Part shown: piece after piece, positions 40,811 to 50,236 of the stretch
Layout: each line of letters opens with the position of its first letter
Numbering within the stretch: the stretch's first letter is position 1
NCBI RefSeq assembly: GCF_000332275.1
Contig: NZ_CM001776.1
Location: 4,462,008-4,526,007, forward strand
From: Synechococcus sp. PCC 7336
GTDB taxonomy: Bacteria; Cyanobacteriota; Cyanobacteriia; Thermostichales; PCC-7336
Direction of reading: 5' to 3'
Length of the DNA: 64,000 nt
Translations under genes and position numbers: made by a program
The notes under the pieces: generated by a model
What the model was told of the DNA's origin: nothing
What the model saw: only the letters and a program-made list of their open reading frames with translations
The model's database searches: none

Positions 40811-41260
40811 ATGAAAATCTGGCCCCAATTCAGTTTGCATTTCGGCCTGTCTCTGTGCCTGCCTTTATTGCTGGGGGTGGCAGTCGGTACGGGGGGTGGC
40901 AGTAGTCGTTGGATAGATTTGCGATCGCAAGCGGTAAGGGCTCAGGAGGAAGATGCGATCGCACCAGACATCGCGCCAGACACGGTAGAACTGTTTGCAC
41001 GGGTGTTGCTGGAAATCGAGCCCTTCCGTTTAAAAGCGCTAGAAGAAACCAACAATACTGCTGACACAACCGCCCAAAATGAAATCCGGCGGCAATTTAT
41101 CCGAGATGCTACGGCAGTGATTGAAAGCCATAACCTGTCGGTTCCCGACTATAACCGCCTCACGATTCAACTGCGGGAAGATCCCGAGCTGAAGGCCCAA
41201 ATCGAGCAGGCGATTCGCTCCATTCAACTGGAGGAAATCAGCCGTTCGCAACCGTTCTAA
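40811..41260 (+). CDS. Exported DUF4168 protein
   Basis: The 149-residue product has an N-terminal hydrophobic segment (FGLSLCLPLLLGVAVGTG) and a helical body: DTVELFARVLLEIEPFRLKAL, FIRDATAVIESHNLSVPDYN and IQLREDPELKAQIEQAI. This is the DUF4168 pattern (helical exported protein, abundant in cyanobacteria and proteobacteria). Function is unknown. Its TAA overlaps the TAG stop of the convergent pyk gene. Confidence 0.82.
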   Translation: MKIWPQFSLHFGLSLCLPLLLGVAVGTGGGSSRWIDLRSQAVRAQEEDAIAPDIAPDTVELFARVLLEIEPFRLKALEETNNTADTTAQNEIRRQFIRDATAVIESHNLSVPDYNRLTIQLREDPELKAQIEQAIRSIQLEEISRSQPF

Positions 41261-43077
41261 CGATTGCGAAGGGAGGCTCGACCCACCCCCGATGTCACCC
41301 GACCTTTCTCTGTGTCAATCGTGACAATGGCTCCATCTCGAATCAGACTGGTTGCCCCCTTGACTCCCACCATCACCGGCAGCCCCAAGCGCATAGCAAT
41401 TACCGCAGCGTGGGATGCTGCTCCCTCTTCTTCAGCAATCACGCCGGCAGCGTGTTTCATCGCCTCCACATAGTTGGCATTAGTGGACGACACCACTAAG
41501 ATCTCTCCTTTTGTCAGCTTGCTCGACTCCAGACCGGAGCGCACGATGCGGGCCGGACCGCTGACGCAGCCGCGACCGAATCCTTGGCCAGTAGCGACCA
41601 CCGACTTCACCATTTCCACTTTGATCAGGTCTGTCGAGCCCGAAAACCCCTGAATGGTCCCGGCAGTCATCACCACCAGATCGCCATCTTGCAGCATGTT
41701 TTGCTCTTGGGCTGTGTTGAGGGCCACCTCAAAAGTCTGGCTAGTGGAGGCTAGATCTGCCAACACGAGGGGGTGAACCCCCCAGACTAGCTGGAGTTGT
41801 CGGGCCACCGTCACTTGGGGGGTAATGGCGAGAATTGGGGTACGGGGGCGAAACTTAGACACATTCCGGGCAGTGGCCCCCGATTTGGTCAGGCTCATAA
41901 TCGCCGCCGCCTCTAATTGCTGAGCAATTTTACCCACCGACCGGCTAATGGCATCGGGAATATTGGTTTTGGGCAGATCGCGATCGCCGCTACCTGCACT
42001 GGCGTGGAGAGTGGGTAGTTGCGGCAGTTGGCGAATGGGGGAAACATATTCCTGCTCGATGCGGCAGGCAATCTGGGCCATAGTTTTCACCGCTTCGACA
42101 GGGTATTTCCCCACGGCAGTTTCGTTGGAGAGCATGACGGCATCGGTGCCATCCAAGATGGCATTGGCCACATCCGAAATCTCGGCACGGGTGGCGCGGG
42201 GGCTGTGGGCCATACTATCCAGCATTTGAGTCGCCGTGATCACCGGAATGCCGAGGCGATTGGCAGTGGCAATCAGACGCTTTTGCAAGACAGGTACATC
42301 CTCAGGCGGGACTTCGACCCCCAAATCTCCCCGCGCTACCATAACTCCGTCCGACAGACGGAGAATTTCCTCCAGTTGCTCCACCGCTTCGTGCTTTTCA
42401 AATTTGACAATAATCGGTACGCGACGACCGAGTGCCGACATGAGCTGGCGCAACTCAATCACATCTGAGGGCTCTCGCACAAAGCTGAGGGCAACCCAAT
42501 CGATCCCTTGGCTGAGACCAAAGCGCAAGTCCTCGCGATCTTTCGGGGTAATCGCCCGAATCGAGAGGCGTATGCCGGGAAAGTTTACCCCTTTGCTATT
42601 GGAGAGCACTCCGCCGATGACGGTGCGGCAGTGCAGTTCTCCCGCTTCGGCATCCACCCGCTCCACCCGCATTTCCACGCGACCGTCATCGAGCAAAATG
42701 ATGGCTCCTACGGGGACTTCGCGGGCCAGCCTGTCGTAGGTAATGCAACTGCGCTCCTGCGTCCCTGGCATGGGGGTGCTCGTCAACACGTAGGGATCGC
42801 CCGCTGCCAGCGAGATCGGCCCCTCTGCGAATTTGCCGAGGCGAATTTTAGGGCCTTGTAGGTCTTGCAAGATAGCCACTTGAATACCCAACTCGTAGGC
42901 CACCTGACGGATGAGTCGAATGCTGCGGCGGTGGTCGTCGTGGCTGCCGTGGGAAAAATTCAGCCGTAGCGTCGTCGCGCCACTGAGTACCAGTTGACGC
43001 AACATATCTGGCTTGGAAGTGGCAGGGCCAATCGTGGCAACGATTTTAGTTCGGCGGAAGGAATCGCTCCAGCGCAT
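41257..43077 (-). CDS. pyk: Pyruvate kinase with C-terminal PEP-utiliser-like domain
   Basis: This glycolytic enzyme makes pyruvate and ATP from phosphoenolpyruvate and ADP. The core has TLRLNFSHGSHDD, LQDLQGPKIRLG, VMVARGDLGVEVP (catalytic loop) and ITATQMLDSMAHSPRATRAE. About 120 residues follow the usual C-terminal allosteric domain and resemble the mobile phosphohistidine domain of PEP-utilising enzymes: EEEGAASHAAVIAMRLGLP. The combined 606 residues match the long pyruvate kinases of cyanobacteria. It starts at ATG 43077 and ends overlapping the DUF4168 stop. Confidence 0.96.
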   Translation of the reverse strand: MRWSDSFRRTKIVATIGPATSKPDMLRQLVLSGATTLRLNFSHGSHDDHRRSIRLIRQVAYELGIQVAILQDLQGPKIRLGKFAEGPISLAAGDPYVLTSTPMPGTQERSCITYDRLAREVPVGAIILLDDGRVEMRVERVDAEAGELHCRTVIGGVLSNSKGVNFPGIRLSIRAITPKDREDLRFGLSQGIDWVALSFVREPSDVIELRQLMSALGRRVPIIVKFEKHEAVEQLEEILRLSDGVMVARGDLGVEVPPEDVPVLQKRLIATANRLGIPVITATQMLDSMAHSPRATRAEISDVANAILDGTDAVMLSNETAVGKYPVEAVKTMAQIACRIEQEYVSPIRQLPQLPTLHASAGSGDRDLPKTNIPDAISRSVGKIAQQLEAAAIMSLTKSGATARNVSKFRPRTPILAITPQVTVARQLQLVWGVHPLVLADLASTSQTFEVALNTAQEQNMLQDGDLVVMTAGTIQGFSGSTDLIKVEMVKSVVATGQGFGRGCVSGPARIVRSGLESSKLTKGEILVVSSTNANYVEAMKHAAGVIAEEEGAASHAAVIAMRLGLPVMVGVKGATSLIRDGAIVTIDTEKGRVTSGVGRASLRNR

Positions 43078-44623: not shown

Positions 44624-46057
44624 ATGGATAGCGCTGAAATTTTACGCAAAAGGAAATATCGCCACAGTCTCGTCCGCGACTTCGATTCAGATCGAGTCTT
44701 GAGTGCCTTCCTGTTGGGGGACGATCGCCCGACGTTAATCTTTATTTGTCAGAACAACTCAGACAGTTCCGGGACTTTGCCAGATTTGCGAGATCTCGAA
44801 CGTATTGTGGGGATGTCCCTGACTGTCCGGGACGCTCGCAAGGTCGAGGATGGGCTGGCCGTTGTCCAGCAGGGTCAGGTGCAAAGGGTTGTGTTAGACG
44901 AGTCGGCGTTCGATCGCGAGAAGATTTATTTGCGATCGCCAGACAACACCTCCGCACTTGAAATCAGTGGGGAAGACTTTAAGGCATTGCTCGAAGACCT
45001 CGGTTTTGAGACAGAGTCGGAAACCGCAAGGCTGCGTATCTACGATTTTGGCTATGCAGCGGTGCGGCAATCGGCGCAGAATCGGGTTGTTTCTGGGATT
45101 CAGCCGTCAGGAGATATGACGCTGGGAAACTATTTGGGGGCCGTTGTTAATTGGCAAAAGCAAGTCGAGAACTATGACGAGAATTTTTTCTTTCTGGCTG
45201 ACTTGCATAGCTTGACGACATTGCCCGACCCTGCCGATTTGCGCGATCGCATTTTCAAAACGGTCGCAACCTTGGTGGCCTGCGGCTTGGATTTAGACAA
45301 GGCCACCCTGTTTCGCCAAAGCGATCTGGGGGGCTATCACACCGAGCTGGCCTGGATTTTTAGCTGCTTGACACCAGAAGGGCGTCTGGAACAAATGACG
45401 CAGTTTAAGGAAAAGGCCAGAAAGCAGGAATTCGTTGGCTCCGGTTTAAAAACCTATCCAATCTTAATGGCCGCCGATATTGCCATCTACCAGGCCACCC
45501 TAGTCCCGGTGGGAGAAGACCAGAGACAACACCTCGAACTGGCTCGCGAAATTATCCGTCGCTTTAATGGTCGCTATGGCTATACGATGCCCGTGCCTAA
45601 AGCTGATATGCCGCAGGTGCTGGCTCGCGTCATGAGCTTGACGGATGGAACCAGCAAGATGTCTAAATCCAATCCCAATCGGGATAGCTGTATTTATTTG
45701 CTGGATAATCCCGACGATATTAAACGCAAAATCAAGCGGGCTAAAACGGATAGCAATCGCGATCTCTTTTTTGACGAGAACCGCCCCGAGATTTCCAATC
45801 TTTTAGGAATTTATCAGGTGCTATCGGGGCTCGCGCAAGCTGAGGTTGTAGAGCAGTTTAAGGGGCAAGGGGCGGCCAAGCTGAAAGCTCAACTGACAGA
45901 GGCTGTCATTGAGGCGTTACGGCCCATTCGAGAGCAGTACGATCGGCTGTCAGCCGATCGCGATCGCGTGCTGGAGATCTTGAGCCAGGGCAAAGCGCGA
46001 GTCGAGCCGATTGCGCAACAAACGCTGGCTGCCGTCAAGCAACGGGTGGGTCTTTAG
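44624..46057 (+). CDS. trpS: Tryptophanyl-tRNA synthetase with ~150-residue N-terminal extension
   Basis: The catalytic core begins near residue 154: RVVSGIQPSGDMTLGNYLGA (HIGH-like region), FFFLADLHSLTTLPDP, GSGLKTYPILMAADIAIYQ, VGEDQRQHLELAREI and KMSKSNPNR, all features of class I TrpRS. The core of about 324 residues has the normal length. The first ~150 residues (MDSAEILRKRKYRHSLVRDF onward) are not part of any TrpRS I know and form an acidic alpha/beta domain of unknown type, in one continuous frame. It could be a specialised second TrpRS or a fused regulatory domain. Confidence 0.92.
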   Translation: MDSAEILRKRKYRHSLVRDFDSDRVLSAFLLGDDRPTLIFICQNNSDSSGTLPDLRDLERIVGMSLTVRDARKVEDGLAVVQQGQVQRVVLDESAFDREKIYLRSPDNTSALEISGEDFKALLEDLGFETESETARLRIYDFGYAAVRQSAQNRVVSGIQPSGDMTLGNYLGAVVNWQKQVENYDENFFFLADLHSLTTLPDPADLRDRIFKTVATLVACGLDLDKATLFRQSDLGGYHTELAWIFSCLTPEGRLEQMTQFKEKARKQEFVGSGLKTYPILMAADIAIYQATLVPVGEDQRQHLELAREIIRRFNGRYGYTMPVPKADMPQVLARVMSLTDGTSKMSKSNPNRDSCIYLLDNPDDIKRKIKRAKTDSNRDLFFDENRPEISNLLGIYQVLSGLAQAEVVEQFKGQGAAKLKAQLTEAVIEALRPIREQYDRLSADRDRVLEILSQGKARVEPIAQQTLAAVKQRVGL

Positions 46058-46204: not shown

Positions 46205-46855
46205 ATGCTGATCGAACTGACCCTCGAAGAGCTGGATGCAGTCCTTCCCCTCGCCCCCACCGGTTCGCAATACAGCGATTACATCAGTAATGTGTTTCTC
46301 AACTTAGAGCGGCTGATTGTGGCGATCGGGGCGGGGGCAGCCTTACTGGTGATTTCCACCCTGTTTAGCGAAACGGGGGTGGGGTTTATTTTCTTTGTGG
46401 TGGGGGTACTGTCTGTCCTCTATCCGTTTGTGTGGGGGCCGCTATTTGAGATTTCCCGCCGCAACAAGGCTTATCGGGAGCTGCCTTACGGCTGGTTTTT
46501 TTTCGGTCAGATCGAGCGGGTGGACAGCCGAGAGGTGCTGGTTGACGAGATCGAACAGATTGATGCGAATGGCGACCTCTATGTGGAAGAGGTGATCGAG
46601 CAGGAATTGCGGCTGGCGATCGCCGACGAGACGGGCATGTCGTTTGTGGTCAAAACTCGCGACGAACCGGCCTACGAGTCAATTGTGCCGCGCCAGTCGG
46701 CGATCGCTTTGATCAAGTCTTTTTCTCCCAATCTGCGCAGCCCAGTCATTAGCGAAGTATATATTGTCAAACTGGGCCAGTGGGTGGGAGATGTGTCTTA
46801 CCTCAAACGCGATGAATTTCTCGATCTGGCGAACGATTTAGTCGAAATGGCCTGA
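46205..46855 (+). CDS. Two-TM conserved cyanobacterial protein
   Basis: The 216-residue product has an acidic N-terminus, two adjacent transmembrane segments (about residues 35-75: LIVAIGAGAALLVISTLF and VGFIFFVVGVLSVLYPFVW), and a cytoplasmic C-terminal domain with IEQIDANGDLYVEEVIEQEL. I recognise it as a conserved cyanobacterial type without assigned function. Start MLIELTLEELDAVLPL at 46205. It lies 147 bp downstream of trpS. Confidence 0.75.
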   Translation: MLIELTLEELDAVLPLAPTGSQYSDYISNVFLNLERLIVAIGAGAALLVISTLFSETGVGFIFFVVGVLSVLYPFVWGPLFEISRRNKAYRELPYGWFFFGQIERVDSREVLVDEIEQIDANGDLYVEEVIEQELRLAIADETGMSFVVKTRDEPAYESIVPRQSAIALIKSFSPNLRSPVISEVYIVKLGQWVGDVSYLKRDEFLDLANDLVEMA

Positions 46856-46903: not shown

Positions 46904-48202
46904 CTAGCAATCCAAAGTGTGCTCCAACTCCCAAGAGCTGAGATGGGCGGAGTAATCCGACCATGCCTTACGCTTGAGCTTGAGATAGGCAGAGATGATT
47001 TCTGGGCCGAGGCGATCGCCCATCACCGAATTCGCCTCCAAACCGCGCAGAGCATCGAGAAGGTTTTCGGGCAGTCGCTTGACATCTGGGGCAGGGGAAT
47101 CGGTGTAGGTATTTGCCTCCGATCGCGGCCCAGGATCTCGCTTTTCCGCCATGCCATCTAACCCCGCCGCAATCACAGCCGCAGGCAGTAAATAGGGATT
47201 GGCAGACCCATCGGGAAGGCGGAACTCAAACCGACCGGCAGCGGGAATGCGAATTGCATGGGTGCGATTGTTGCCGCCGTAGGTGGCGGTGGTGGGGGAC
47301 CAAGTTGCTCCAGACGTTGTGGTTGAGGCGTTCAGGCGCTTGTAGGAATTGACAGTGGGATTGCTGAAGGCGCAAATCGCCTCCGCGTGATGCAAGACGC
47401 CAGCGATAAACTGGTAGGCCAGGTCGGATAGCCCCAATTCCCCTTGGGGATCGTCAAACAAATTCGTGCTGCCAGCGGTATCCCACACGGAGAGGTGCAG
47501 GTGGCAGCCATTCCCCGTTAAGTGGGTGAAGGGTTTCGGCATAAAGGTGGCTCGGAAACCGTGCTTAGCCGCGATCGCCTTCACCATGTATTTGAAAAAG
47601 GCATGTCGATCGGCTGTGACCAAAGCATCTGCATACTTCCAATTCATCTCAAATTGGCCGTTGGCATCCTCGTGATCGTTTTGATACGATTCCCAACCCA
47701 GCTCTAGCATGGCATCGCAAATTTCCGAGATGACATCGTAGCGGCGCATCAACGCCTGCTGGTCGTAACAGGGCTTGGAGGCGCGATCGAGCCCGTCAGA
47801 AATACTCTCGCCATCGGCACTGAGGAGAAAATACTCGCACTCCACCCCCGTTTTCACCTGGTAGCTTTGGCCTTCAGCTTCAGCTAACACCCGTTTCAAG
47901 ACCAGTCTGGGGGTTTGGGCGATCGCCTCTCCAGTCACGCTATACAGATCCGCTGGCATCCAAACCACATCGGGCTGCCAAGGCAGTTGTATGAGGCGAT
48001 CGCGATCGGGAATGGCCAAAATATCTGGATCGGCTGGGGTCATATCCAACCAAGCTGCAAACCCAGCAAACCCCGCTCCAGCTTGGGCGATCGTATCGAT
48101 CGCCACTGCGGGCACTAGCTTCGAGCGCTGCACCCCGAATAAATCTGTGAAGGAAATCAGAAAATAGCGAATGCCGCGATCGCGAGCTAACTCAGACAGC
48201 AT
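46904..48202 (-). CDS. glnT: GlnT-type glutamine synthetase homologue
   Basis: The 432-residue product has GS-superfamily catalytic segments: TGVECEYFLL (metal-ligand Glu pair), GQFEMNWKYADALV, NGCHLHLSVWD (GMHxH-like His), NPTVNSYKRL and FEFRLPDGSANPYLLPAA. It matches the GlnT (TIGR03105 type III glutamate-ammonia ligase) group rather than GlnA or GlnN, based on length and the N-terminus (MLSELARDRGIRYFLISFTD). The family forms gamma-glutamyl amides; ammonia or another amine could be the partner. It overlaps the MetX-like gene by one base (taatg). Confidence 0.88.
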   Translation of the reverse strand: MLSELARDRGIRYFLISFTDLFGVQRSKLVPAVAIDTIAQAGAGFAGFAAWLDMTPADPDILAIPDRDRLIQLPWQPDVVWMPADLYSVTGEAIAQTPRLVLKRVLAEAEGQSYQVKTGVECEYFLLSADGESISDGLDRASKPCYDQQALMRRYDVISEICDAMLELGWESYQNDHEDANGQFEMNWKYADALVTADRHAFFKYMVKAIAAKHGFRATFMPKPFTHLTGNGCHLHLSVWDTAGSTNLFDDPQGELGLSDLAYQFIAGVLHHAEAICAFSNPTVNSYKRLNASTTTSGATWSPTTATYGGNNRTHAIRIPAAGRFEFRLPDGSANPYLLPAAVIAAGLDGMAEKRDPGPRSEANTYTDSPAPDVKRLPENLLDALRGLEANSVMGDRLGPEIISAYLKLKRKAWSDYSAHLSSWELEHTLDC

Positions 48203-49215
48203 TAATCACCACTCCTCAGCAAATGGTCTACAGCTTCTCGGATAAATCGTTCGTCTTCGGGATTTTGGTAAGGATTGCCAGCACGGTGTCCCCAAATCGA
48301 CGGGATTGGTAAATACTGCCCCTTGGGAATGAGTTTGGCTTCTGCGGCACAGTCTTCCGGCGTAAAGTACAAATCTGTTTCAGCGGGCATCACCAATGTT
48401 TGAGCCTGGATGGCCCCCAAAGCCGCCTCGTAATTGCCGCAATAGAGGGGATTATCTCCGACATCGCAATGCAACCATGTATCGAGCATGGCAATTAAAT
48501 TGCGCGGATCGCATTTGCGATAGCTAGCTTCCCAACCCCGCAGGAGGTAATCTTCCAATGAAGCGTAGCCCAGCGAGTAAAACAGTCCCTCGCGGTAATA
48601 CGCCTGAGAGGCTGCCCAGCTAGCGTAGATTTGGGCAAAGGTCCGAAACCCCCGTTCGGGCACCCCCTCAAACCTGCTCCCCGTCCAGCTTGGATCGCTG
48701 GTTAAGGCCGAGCGCAGGCTTTGCAGAAAGATCCGATTGTGAGGAGTGGTGCGGGCAGTGCCGCAGAGAGCAGCCATTCGCGCGACGCGATCGGGATATA
48801 ACGCTCCCCAGTGATAAGCCTGCTGAGCCCCCATCGACCAGCCGTAGACGAGTGCCAAGCGATCGATCTTCAGCACTTCGCGGACGAGATGGGCTTGCAG
48901 CCGCACGTTGTCCCAGTGGGTAAACCAAAACTGTTGCTCTGCCAAGCCGCACAGAGGCTGATTGCTAGGAGAGCTGGATAGTCCGTTTCCCAGGGCGTTA
49001 ACGGCGATGATGAAATAAGCTGCGGGGTTGAGAATGCCCTCGACACGGATGAGCCACTCTAAATCGGTATGGTGGGCTCCGTAGGAGGTGGGATAGAGGA
49101 TGGCATTGCTGCGATCGCCGTTGAGAGTCCCGTAGGTTTCATAGACCAGTTGAATCTCCGGCAGTGTCACCCCACATTGCAGCGGGAAGTCTGCGAGCGT
49201 CAAACATTCAGACAT
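48202..49215 (-). CDS. MetX-like alpha/beta hydrolase (acyltransferase family)
   Basis: The product of about 337 residues follows homoserine O-acyltransferase (MetX) architecture: QLVYETYGTLNGDRSNAILY, YPTSYGAHHTDLEW, the nucleophile in VYGWSMGAQQAYHWGALYP, the acidic residue in PAETDLYF and His in SIWGHRAGNP. MetX normally has G-S-MGG; here the motif is GWSMGA. The start ATG ending at 49215 overlaps the stop of the desaturase gene by 8 bp, and its stop overlaps glnT by one. True homoserine acylation is not assured because the context differs from methionine genes. Confidence 0.85.
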   Translation of the reverse strand: MSECLTLADFPLQCGVTLPEIQLVYETYGTLNGDRSNAILYPTSYGAHHTDLEWLIRVEGILNPAAYFIIAVNALGNGLSSSPSNQPLCGLAEQQFWFTHWDNVRLQAHLVREVLKIDRLALVYGWSMGAQQAYHWGALYPDRVARMAALCGTARTTPHNRIFLQSLRSALTSDPSWTGSRFEGVPERGFRTFAQIYASWAASQAYYREGLFYSLGYASLEDYLLRGWEASYRKCDPRNLIAMLDTWLHCDVGDNPLYCGNYEAALGAIQAQTLVMPAETDLYFTPEDCAAEAKLIPKGQYLPIPSIWGHRAGNPYQNPEDERFIREAVDHLLRSGD

Positions 49216-50236
49216 ACGGCAACTCGGGGGAATTGACTCGTTCTCCACGACGCAGTTTTTGCAAGATTTTCAGGTTGACCGATAGGTAGCCGGGATCGAC
49301 GCGATTGAGGTGGGGTCTGAGTTTCTGGTGGGCGCTGCCGAGGGCGTGAAACGGAATTGAGGGGCAGAAGTGATGTTCGGCATGGAAGGGCATATTCCAG
49401 AGCAGGAATCGCAAGGGTGCCCAAGTCAATGTGGTGCGGGTATTGGTGAGGGGGTTGGCGTCTAGGCTGCAGTCTGTGTGTTCGGCTAACAGAATCATCC
49501 GCAATATCGGCTGCCCGATCGCCAGAGGCAGCAACCATCCCAGCACAAACCAGGGTTGTTGCAAGTAGAGGGAAGCGGCGATCGCAAAAGCATAAACCAA
49601 CAACTGCACTTGCACCGATCGCTGTACCTGCCTGCGGGCACTGTTGGGAATATAGGGCATGTCTGCCATCTGCCCCGTAGCACAGAGGAAGTGGGTTTTC
49701 AGTTTGCCGATCCACCAAGGAATGCCGCTGACTAGCCACAGGTATTCCCATACGTTGGTCGGAGTTAGGTCGGCCAGCTCTGGATCTTTGCCGGGAATGC
49801 GGGTGTAGCGGTGGTGCCACTGGTGGTAGCGCCAGTAAAAGGTGCTGTTATACAGGGAAAACAGCCCAGCGAACCAAGCCACGATGTCATTGGCACGATT
49901 GCTGGCGAATGCCGTCCGATGGACGCATTCGTGTAGGGGCATGAACAGAATCGCAATACTGAAGCCGTAGAACGCCAATGCAGGCAAGCCAATCCAAAGA
50001 TTGTGGAGATGTGCGAGCCAGCAATAACCGCTCGCCCCGATCGCGATCGCGTGGCCAGCTAGCTGCAAAGTCCCTTTGCGATCGGAGCGCTGATTGAGCT
50101 GTTGCAATCCCTGTTTGGAAAACACTTGCTGGGGCGAAAGGTAGGCAGCCGCAGCTTTAGGCGAGCGATCGAAACTCAGCTCGGTTTCGAATGCTGCAGG
50201 TTCCGATGGATGGACCGCCTTGGGTTCGTCAGACAT
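49208..50236 (-). CDS. Membrane di-iron fatty-acid-desaturase-type protein
   Basis: The 342-residue product has three histidine boxes of the desaturase/hydroxylase superfamily: HECVH (102-106), HQWHH (138-142) and HAEHH (285-289). Four or so hydrophobic segments surround them. Box 2 context is YHQWHHRYTRIPGKDPEL. It is not a typical CrtR carotenoid hydroxylase, whose boxes read differently. Likely reaction is desaturation or hydroxylation of a lipid or amide. It is first in a three-gene operon with MetX-like and GlnT-like genes. Start MSDEPKAVHPSEP at 50236. Confidence 0.88.
   Translation of the reverse strand: MSDEPKAVHPSEPAAFETELSFDRSPKAAAAYLSPQQVFSKQGLQQLNQRSDRKGTLQLAGHAIAIGASGYCWLAHLHNLWIGLPALAFYGFSIAILFMPLHECVHRTAFASNRANDIVAWFAGLFSLYNSTFYWRYHQWHHRYTRIPGKDPELADLTPTNVWEYLWLVSGIPWWIGKLKTHFLCATGQMADMPYIPNSARRQVQRSVQVQLLVYAFAIAASLYLQQPWFVLGWLLPLAIGQPILRMILLAEHTDCSLDANPLTNTRTTLTWAPLRFLLWNMPFHAEHHFCPSIPFHALGSAHQKLRPHLNRVDPGYLSVNLKILQKLRRGERVNSPELPYV

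Follow-up and report, generated by a model that had tools for sequence, protein, structure and literature searches.

The question raised by this locus is why a bacterial tryptophanyl-tRNA synthetase (TrpRS) should be preceded, in the same reading frame, by some 150 further residues (the N-domain), and what these residues are. The window analysed is a stretch of 64,000 nucleotides from Synechococcus sp. PCC 7336, in which the gene (44624-46057, forward strand) is an unbroken frame of 477 amino acids read from an ATG. A preliminary description of the DNA had the catalytic core begin late in a frame that is uninterrupted upstream, and this was borne out on both points, as the ORF has no break and a complete TrpRS core starts at about residue 152. 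The Pfam family tRNA-synt_1b matches residues 152-432 and the NCBIfam model TIGR00233 (trpS) matches residues 152-477, scoring 309 bits where the cut-off is 177. In the catalytic and anticodon-binding core (45074-46054, forward strand) the motifs SGIQPSG, TLGN, MAAD, GEDQ and KMSKS are all intact, among them both class I motifs of bacterial TrpRS (TLGN, a variant of HIGH, and KMSKS). Also conserved is E305, the equivalent of E. coli Glu155, the reader of G73. The genome, which is complete on one contig of 5.07 Mb, holds two PF00579 genes, namely the fused TrpRS and a TyrRS, and a search of it with TIGR00233 gave a single match, the fused gene itself. The earlier suggestion of a second, inhibitor-tolerant TrpRS is therefore wrong for PCC 7336. 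Since the genome has no other TrpRS, the cell depends on the fused enzyme, and this status as the sole TrpRS suggests that it aminoacylates and would charge ordinary tRNA-Trp. No riboswitch or T-box near the genes matched at the Rfam gathering thresholds.

The N-domain (about residues 1-150; 44624-45073, forward strand) is found in other genera. A search with it of about 95 related genomes gave one relative, the uncultured cyanobacterium MAG PMM_0068 (E 1e-6), and a GTDB-wide scan with these two full-length proteins gave PMM_0068 again together with a full-length match in Microcoleus sp. LEGE 07076. In all three (PCC 7336, Microcoleus and PMM_0068) N-domain and TrpRS core share one reading frame. 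For the other cyanobacterial TrpRSs (386 genomes) the alignment starts at about residue 120-150, and among the matches listed the N-domain is covered by the window's own protein alone. No fused relative was found in viral contigs or plasmids, nor in 198 genomes around Microcoleus except Microcoleus itself. The arrangement is rare, being found in three cyanobacteria. It may be noted that a 153-codon frame would stay open by chance in one genome with a probability of about 0.002, whereas for a frame that stays open, and can be aligned, across three genera the value, calculated from composition, is about 5e-9. Between PCC 7336 and Microcoleus the divergence at codon positions 1, 2 and 3 is 0.48, 0.33 and 0.72, which is the pattern of coding DNA; the N-domains of this pair are 37% identical and the cores 75%, while the N-domain of PMM_0068 is more distant (22-24% identity). 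The presence of the same N-domain in frame in three genera, with coding-type divergence, therefore supports the preliminary description in treating it as a genuine fused domain. In PCC 7336 a GTG at codon 147 is a possible internal start near residue 150, and initiation there would give a TrpRS of normal length with the upstream frame untranslated and open by chance. However, that upstream frame encodes a homologous folded domain in the three genera, and the Microcoleus gene lacks any in-frame start from codon 124 to codon 165. Initiation at GTG 147 cannot account for the conservation of the upstream frame, and we regard this reading as extremely improbable. Separately, a long upstream frame in another genome (G055, 486 aa) is of low complexity and not homologous to the N-domain, and weak class matches (L068, L070, L071) are fortuitous, lying in unrelated ORFs.

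The profile search of residues 1-150 that had been proposed as a check was run at several levels. With Pfam PF04073 (tRNA_edit) the N-domain of the window scores 13.3 bits against a cut-off of 25.5 and so falls below it; sub-threshold matches of this kind occur in two of the three N-domains, with an E-value of 0.017 at best. In a profile search of PDB sequences, YbaK of H. influenzae (1dbu) is second in the list with an E-value of 0.17. An alignment of the three N-domains was then compared by hhalign with a YbaK-family profile built from 26 YbaK/ProX-type proteins of the phylum. The match scores 41-45 at a probability of 85-94%, and in global mode the alignment is co-linear over 134 columns. 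This is well above the controls, as 100 column-shuffled profiles score at most 19.5 (probability at most 2%), the reversed profile 17.8, and the background profiles of cyanobacterial ProRS INS and of TrpRS 11-13 and 10.7 respectively. Modelled by AF2 from the three-row alignment, the N-domain has a structure of medium confidence (mean pLDDT 61, pTM 0.58). With this model the best 25 PDB matches of Foldseek are all of the YbaK/ProX fold (probability 0.99-1.00), the best being ProX and other YbaK-fold chains (E 3e-5, probability 1.00), and past these chains the probability falls sharply from 0.99 to 0.08. Also, for SadB and the leading family members VIA-align gives Z values of 9-11, with 114-124 residues aligned. 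The AlaX family is not present among the Pfam or Foldseek matches listed for the N-domain, nor in the VIA list. At the level of predicted fold and sequence profile, we regard the descent of the N-domain from the YbaK/ProX/ProRS-INS superfamily as established. A derivation from the INS insertion of cyanobacterial ProRS in particular was rejected, the profile score being at background. As a separate observation, in the ProRS of PCC 7336 (genome position C1:287733, L105) and in many cyanobacterial ProRSs PF04073 matches the INS editing domain in its first half alone, the second half having diverged. A search for viral YbaK proteins to deepen the alignment found nothing, and a literature search, with most subscription journals outside it, turned up no paper in which a TrpRS carries a YbaK-type domain.

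The N-domain resembles YbaK/ProX, ProXp-ala and ProRS INS (PF04073) in fold, in co-linear sequence and in the position of one aspartate, and differs from them in several ways. Those domains are either free-standing or part of ProRS, whereas here the domain is on a TrpRS. The lysine found in all 26 YbaK-family proteins is replaced by Ser, Arg and Pro in PCC 7336, Microcoleus and PMM_0068 respectively (S27 in the window, codon 44702-44704, forward strand, by the hhalign alignment), and the N-domain lacks a stretch of some 15 residues ahead of this position. In ProXp-ala the corresponding K45 contacts A76 and is needed for its binding, and it is described as conserved in nearly all of the INS superfamily (PMC10164551). 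The G-G-x-x-P substrate loop (26/26, 24/26 and 25/26 in the YbaK proteins) is deleted or replaced in all three fused TrpRSs. On the other hand, 18 columns are invariant across the three distant N-domains, and the best-conserved stretch (residues 89-103; 44888-44932, forward strand, with V89, D92-E93, F96-D97 and L103 invariant) contains the motif DE-x-x-FD, whose D92 aligns with an aspartate conserved in 26 of 26 YbaK proteins. As the active-site lysine and the GG-x-x-P loop are gone, we do not class the N-domain as a YbaK/ProX editing enzyme, even though it is a relative, and it is probably a "pseudo-editing" domain that performs no hydrolytic editing. An altered hydrolysis or some other activity is conceivable in view of the positions that are kept.

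The most direct form of such an activity would be editing in a new form, whereby a rearranged site around D92-E93/F96-D97 would let the N-domain hydrolyse tRNA-Trp that carries the wrong amino acid, either a tryptophan analogue or some other aromatic one. The descent and fold of the domain, the conservation of this motif with its YbaK aspartate, and the possible supply of a tryptophan analogue by the Microcoleus gene cluster described below are consistent with this. Yet the A76-binding lysine and the loop are missing in three of three, and the domain is acidic; also, we know of no TrpRS that edits. We therefore hold it to be improbable. The acidity (pI 4.5-5.0 and net charge -6 to -10 in the three members) bears equally on a role as a tRNA-binding appendage, which the preliminary description had listed among its options. 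The model for it is the cytosolic TrpRS of Plasmodium falciparum, where an N-terminal AlaX-like domain, described as rich in basic residues, has lost its zinc ligands and has been proposed to bind tRNA (PMC3680381). The two enzymes are alike in layout and in decay, a TrpRS being preceded in each by an editing-type domain some 150 residues long that has lost its catalytic residues, but they differ in domain family. The domain of the parasite is AlaX-like, basic and joined by a 72-residue linker to a TrpRS of eukaryotic type, while here a YbaK-like, acidic domain is joined with almost no linker to a bacterial TrpRS. Also, tRNA-Trp is an ordinary cyanobacterial one in all three genomes (anticodon CCA, G73), so that an unusual tRNA-Trp was rejected as the cause of the N-domain; the Glu155 equivalent is kept as well, and nothing in the tRNA calls for an additional domain to bind it. 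Since the domain is acidic and the A76-contacting lysine is lost, general tRNA binding is less likely, and by analogy with Plasmodium such an appendage is an unlikely though arguable reading. A membrane role was rejected as well. The synthetases of cyanobacteria that are fused to CAAD, a membrane anchor, share with this protein the presence of an extra domain on a cyanobacterial enzyme, but the N-domain has no hydrophobic helix. Its maximum 19-residue hydropathy is 0.87-1.05 in the three members as against 2.3 in a control membrane ORF, in agreement with the earlier remark that the region is not CAAD-like. With values of 6.9-8.7, the cores of the fused enzymes lie somewhat to the basic side of most canonical cores (typically about 6), and it may be conjectured that the acidic N-domain packs on the basic core; the full-length AF2 model (pLDDT 46) is too poor to judge this packing.

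To place the fused enzymes among their relatives we used a maximum-likelihood tree of 34 TrpRS cores, which is midpoint-rooted and has long branches. The three form one clade (support 100/100) outside all the sampled cyanobacterial TrpRSs, including the canonical copy of Microcoleus, and core identity is 64-74% between members of the clade, against about 51% at best with the rest. The hosts belong to different families, and both the order-mates of PCC 7336 and the nearest relatives of PMM_0068 carry ordinary TrpRSs. A monophyletic clade with cores 64-74% identical, in hosts of different families whose relatives have ordinary enzymes, is best explained by horizontal spread of the fused TrpRS among cyanobacterial lineages. 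It is a second copy in Microcoleus and the sole TrpRS detected in PCC 7336 and PMM_0068, where, on this tree, it would have replaced the native TrpRS.

In Microcoleus the fused trpS heads an apparent operon (L086:2501-6017 and L093:13610-16310), being followed on the same strand by an extra trpA, an extra trpB and genes for an MFS transporter and an M14 zinc carboxypeptidase. Only 2 bases separate the trpS stop from the next start, and short overlaps or gaps follow thereafter. The extra TrpB is 51-53% identical to canonical TrpBs and its PLP lysine lies within the sequence EGNNLTGSHK; the genome also encodes an ordinary TrpB. The genes around the operon look like housekeeping genes of a cyanobacterium (accA, GTP cyclohydrolase and phosphoglucosamine mutase among them), and for this reason the contig does not look foreign. 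The operon is possibly a tryptophan-related cluster, and it gives the earlier idea of a second, tolerant TrpRS some standing as an explanation of the clade's origin. On this view the clade would be an auxiliary TrpRS that tolerates an inhibitor or analogue and stems from a cluster for a tryptophan-derived compound, with the N-domain secondary. In its favour, Microcoleus has an extra target enzyme together with precursor enzymes and an exporter, a combination that resembles self-protection clusters, an example being the auxiliary resistant TrpRS of indolmycin-linked Streptomyces (PMC6804068). The likeness to that TrpRS lies in being a second copy (in Microcoleus), with a link to tryptophan metabolism through the neighbourhood only, and the two differ in that the fused enzyme is the sole TrpRS of PCC 7336. 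However, no scaffold-building enzyme was recognised in about 40 kb of the Microcoleus contig, the trpA, trpB, MFS and M14 neighbours are absent by the window's copy and on the short PMM_0068 contig, and the Trp-binding residues of the window's TrpRS look ordinary. We know of no such N-domain on an auxiliary Streptomyces TrpRS. Self-protection as the whole explanation is a tentative possibility, with the odds against it.

The reading that we favour on balance is that of a working TrpRS with a non-catalytic, decayed editing module, which spread horizontally as an auxiliary enzyme and replaced the native TrpRS here. The gene would thus encode a bacterial-type TrpRS that charges ordinary tRNA-Trp, and its N-domain would be a YbaK/ProX (INS-superfamily) editing domain stripped of its hydrolytic machinery. 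This loss makes the N-domain most likely non-catalytic, and a docking or regulatory role is what is left once catalysis and general RNA binding look less likely. As an appended module it could pack on or near the core, or dock a partner or a small ligand, and so modulate the enzyme rather than proofread Trp-tRNA; its function, whether docking, regulatory or structural, would then be a non-catalytic one. That YbaK-like domains can serve non-editing proteins is seen from SadB of Pseudomonas (YbaK-like plus HDOD) and Maqu_0641, in which a YbaK-like module is likewise N-terminal. Proteins of this type give the best structural match of the N-domain model (VIA Z 11.0), though SadB is a signalling protein that binds c-di-GMP and not a synthetase. 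The fused TrpRS would have arisen once and then moved between cyanobacterial lineages, probably in the role of an auxiliary enzyme belonging to a gene cluster for tryptophan or a tryptophan analogue, as Microcoleus still shows, with the native TrpRS replaced in the lineages of PCC 7336 and PMM_0068. A bolder version, to which we give a small chance, is that the editing-derived domain was remodelled so as to bind, or to select against, a tryptophan analogue from the putative cyanobacterial cluster (fused trpS, trpA, trpB, MFS, M14 peptidase), and that the enzyme spread horizontally and was able to replace the housekeeping TrpRS. If true, this would be the first case of a YbaK-lineage domain serving a TrpRS in proofreading or sensing.

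Bacterial TrpRS has been stated to lack the N-terminal domain of the human enzyme in a structural paper of 2025 (PMC12135181). PCC 7336 contrasts with this statement, as its only TrpRS is a bacterial one with a predicted folded N-domain. Beside the AlaX-like fusion of Plasmodium it would be a second, independent decayed editing domain on a TrpRS, and two such cases let one ask what a non-hydrolytic editing fold gives to a synthetase. The Microcoleus operon is also a concrete place to seek tryptophan-derived chemistry.

Three other ORFs of the window may be mentioned. Directly 3′ of the fused trpS lies a probable membrane protein of 216 aa without a Pfam or NCBIfam match (46205-46855, forward strand). 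On the reverse strand, a pyruvate kinase of 606 aa (41257-43077) has an apparent C-terminal PEP-utiliser mobile domain, and a fatty-acid desaturase/ketolase-like ORF of 342 aa (49208-50236) overlaps at its end the start of a metX-like gene (48202-49248).
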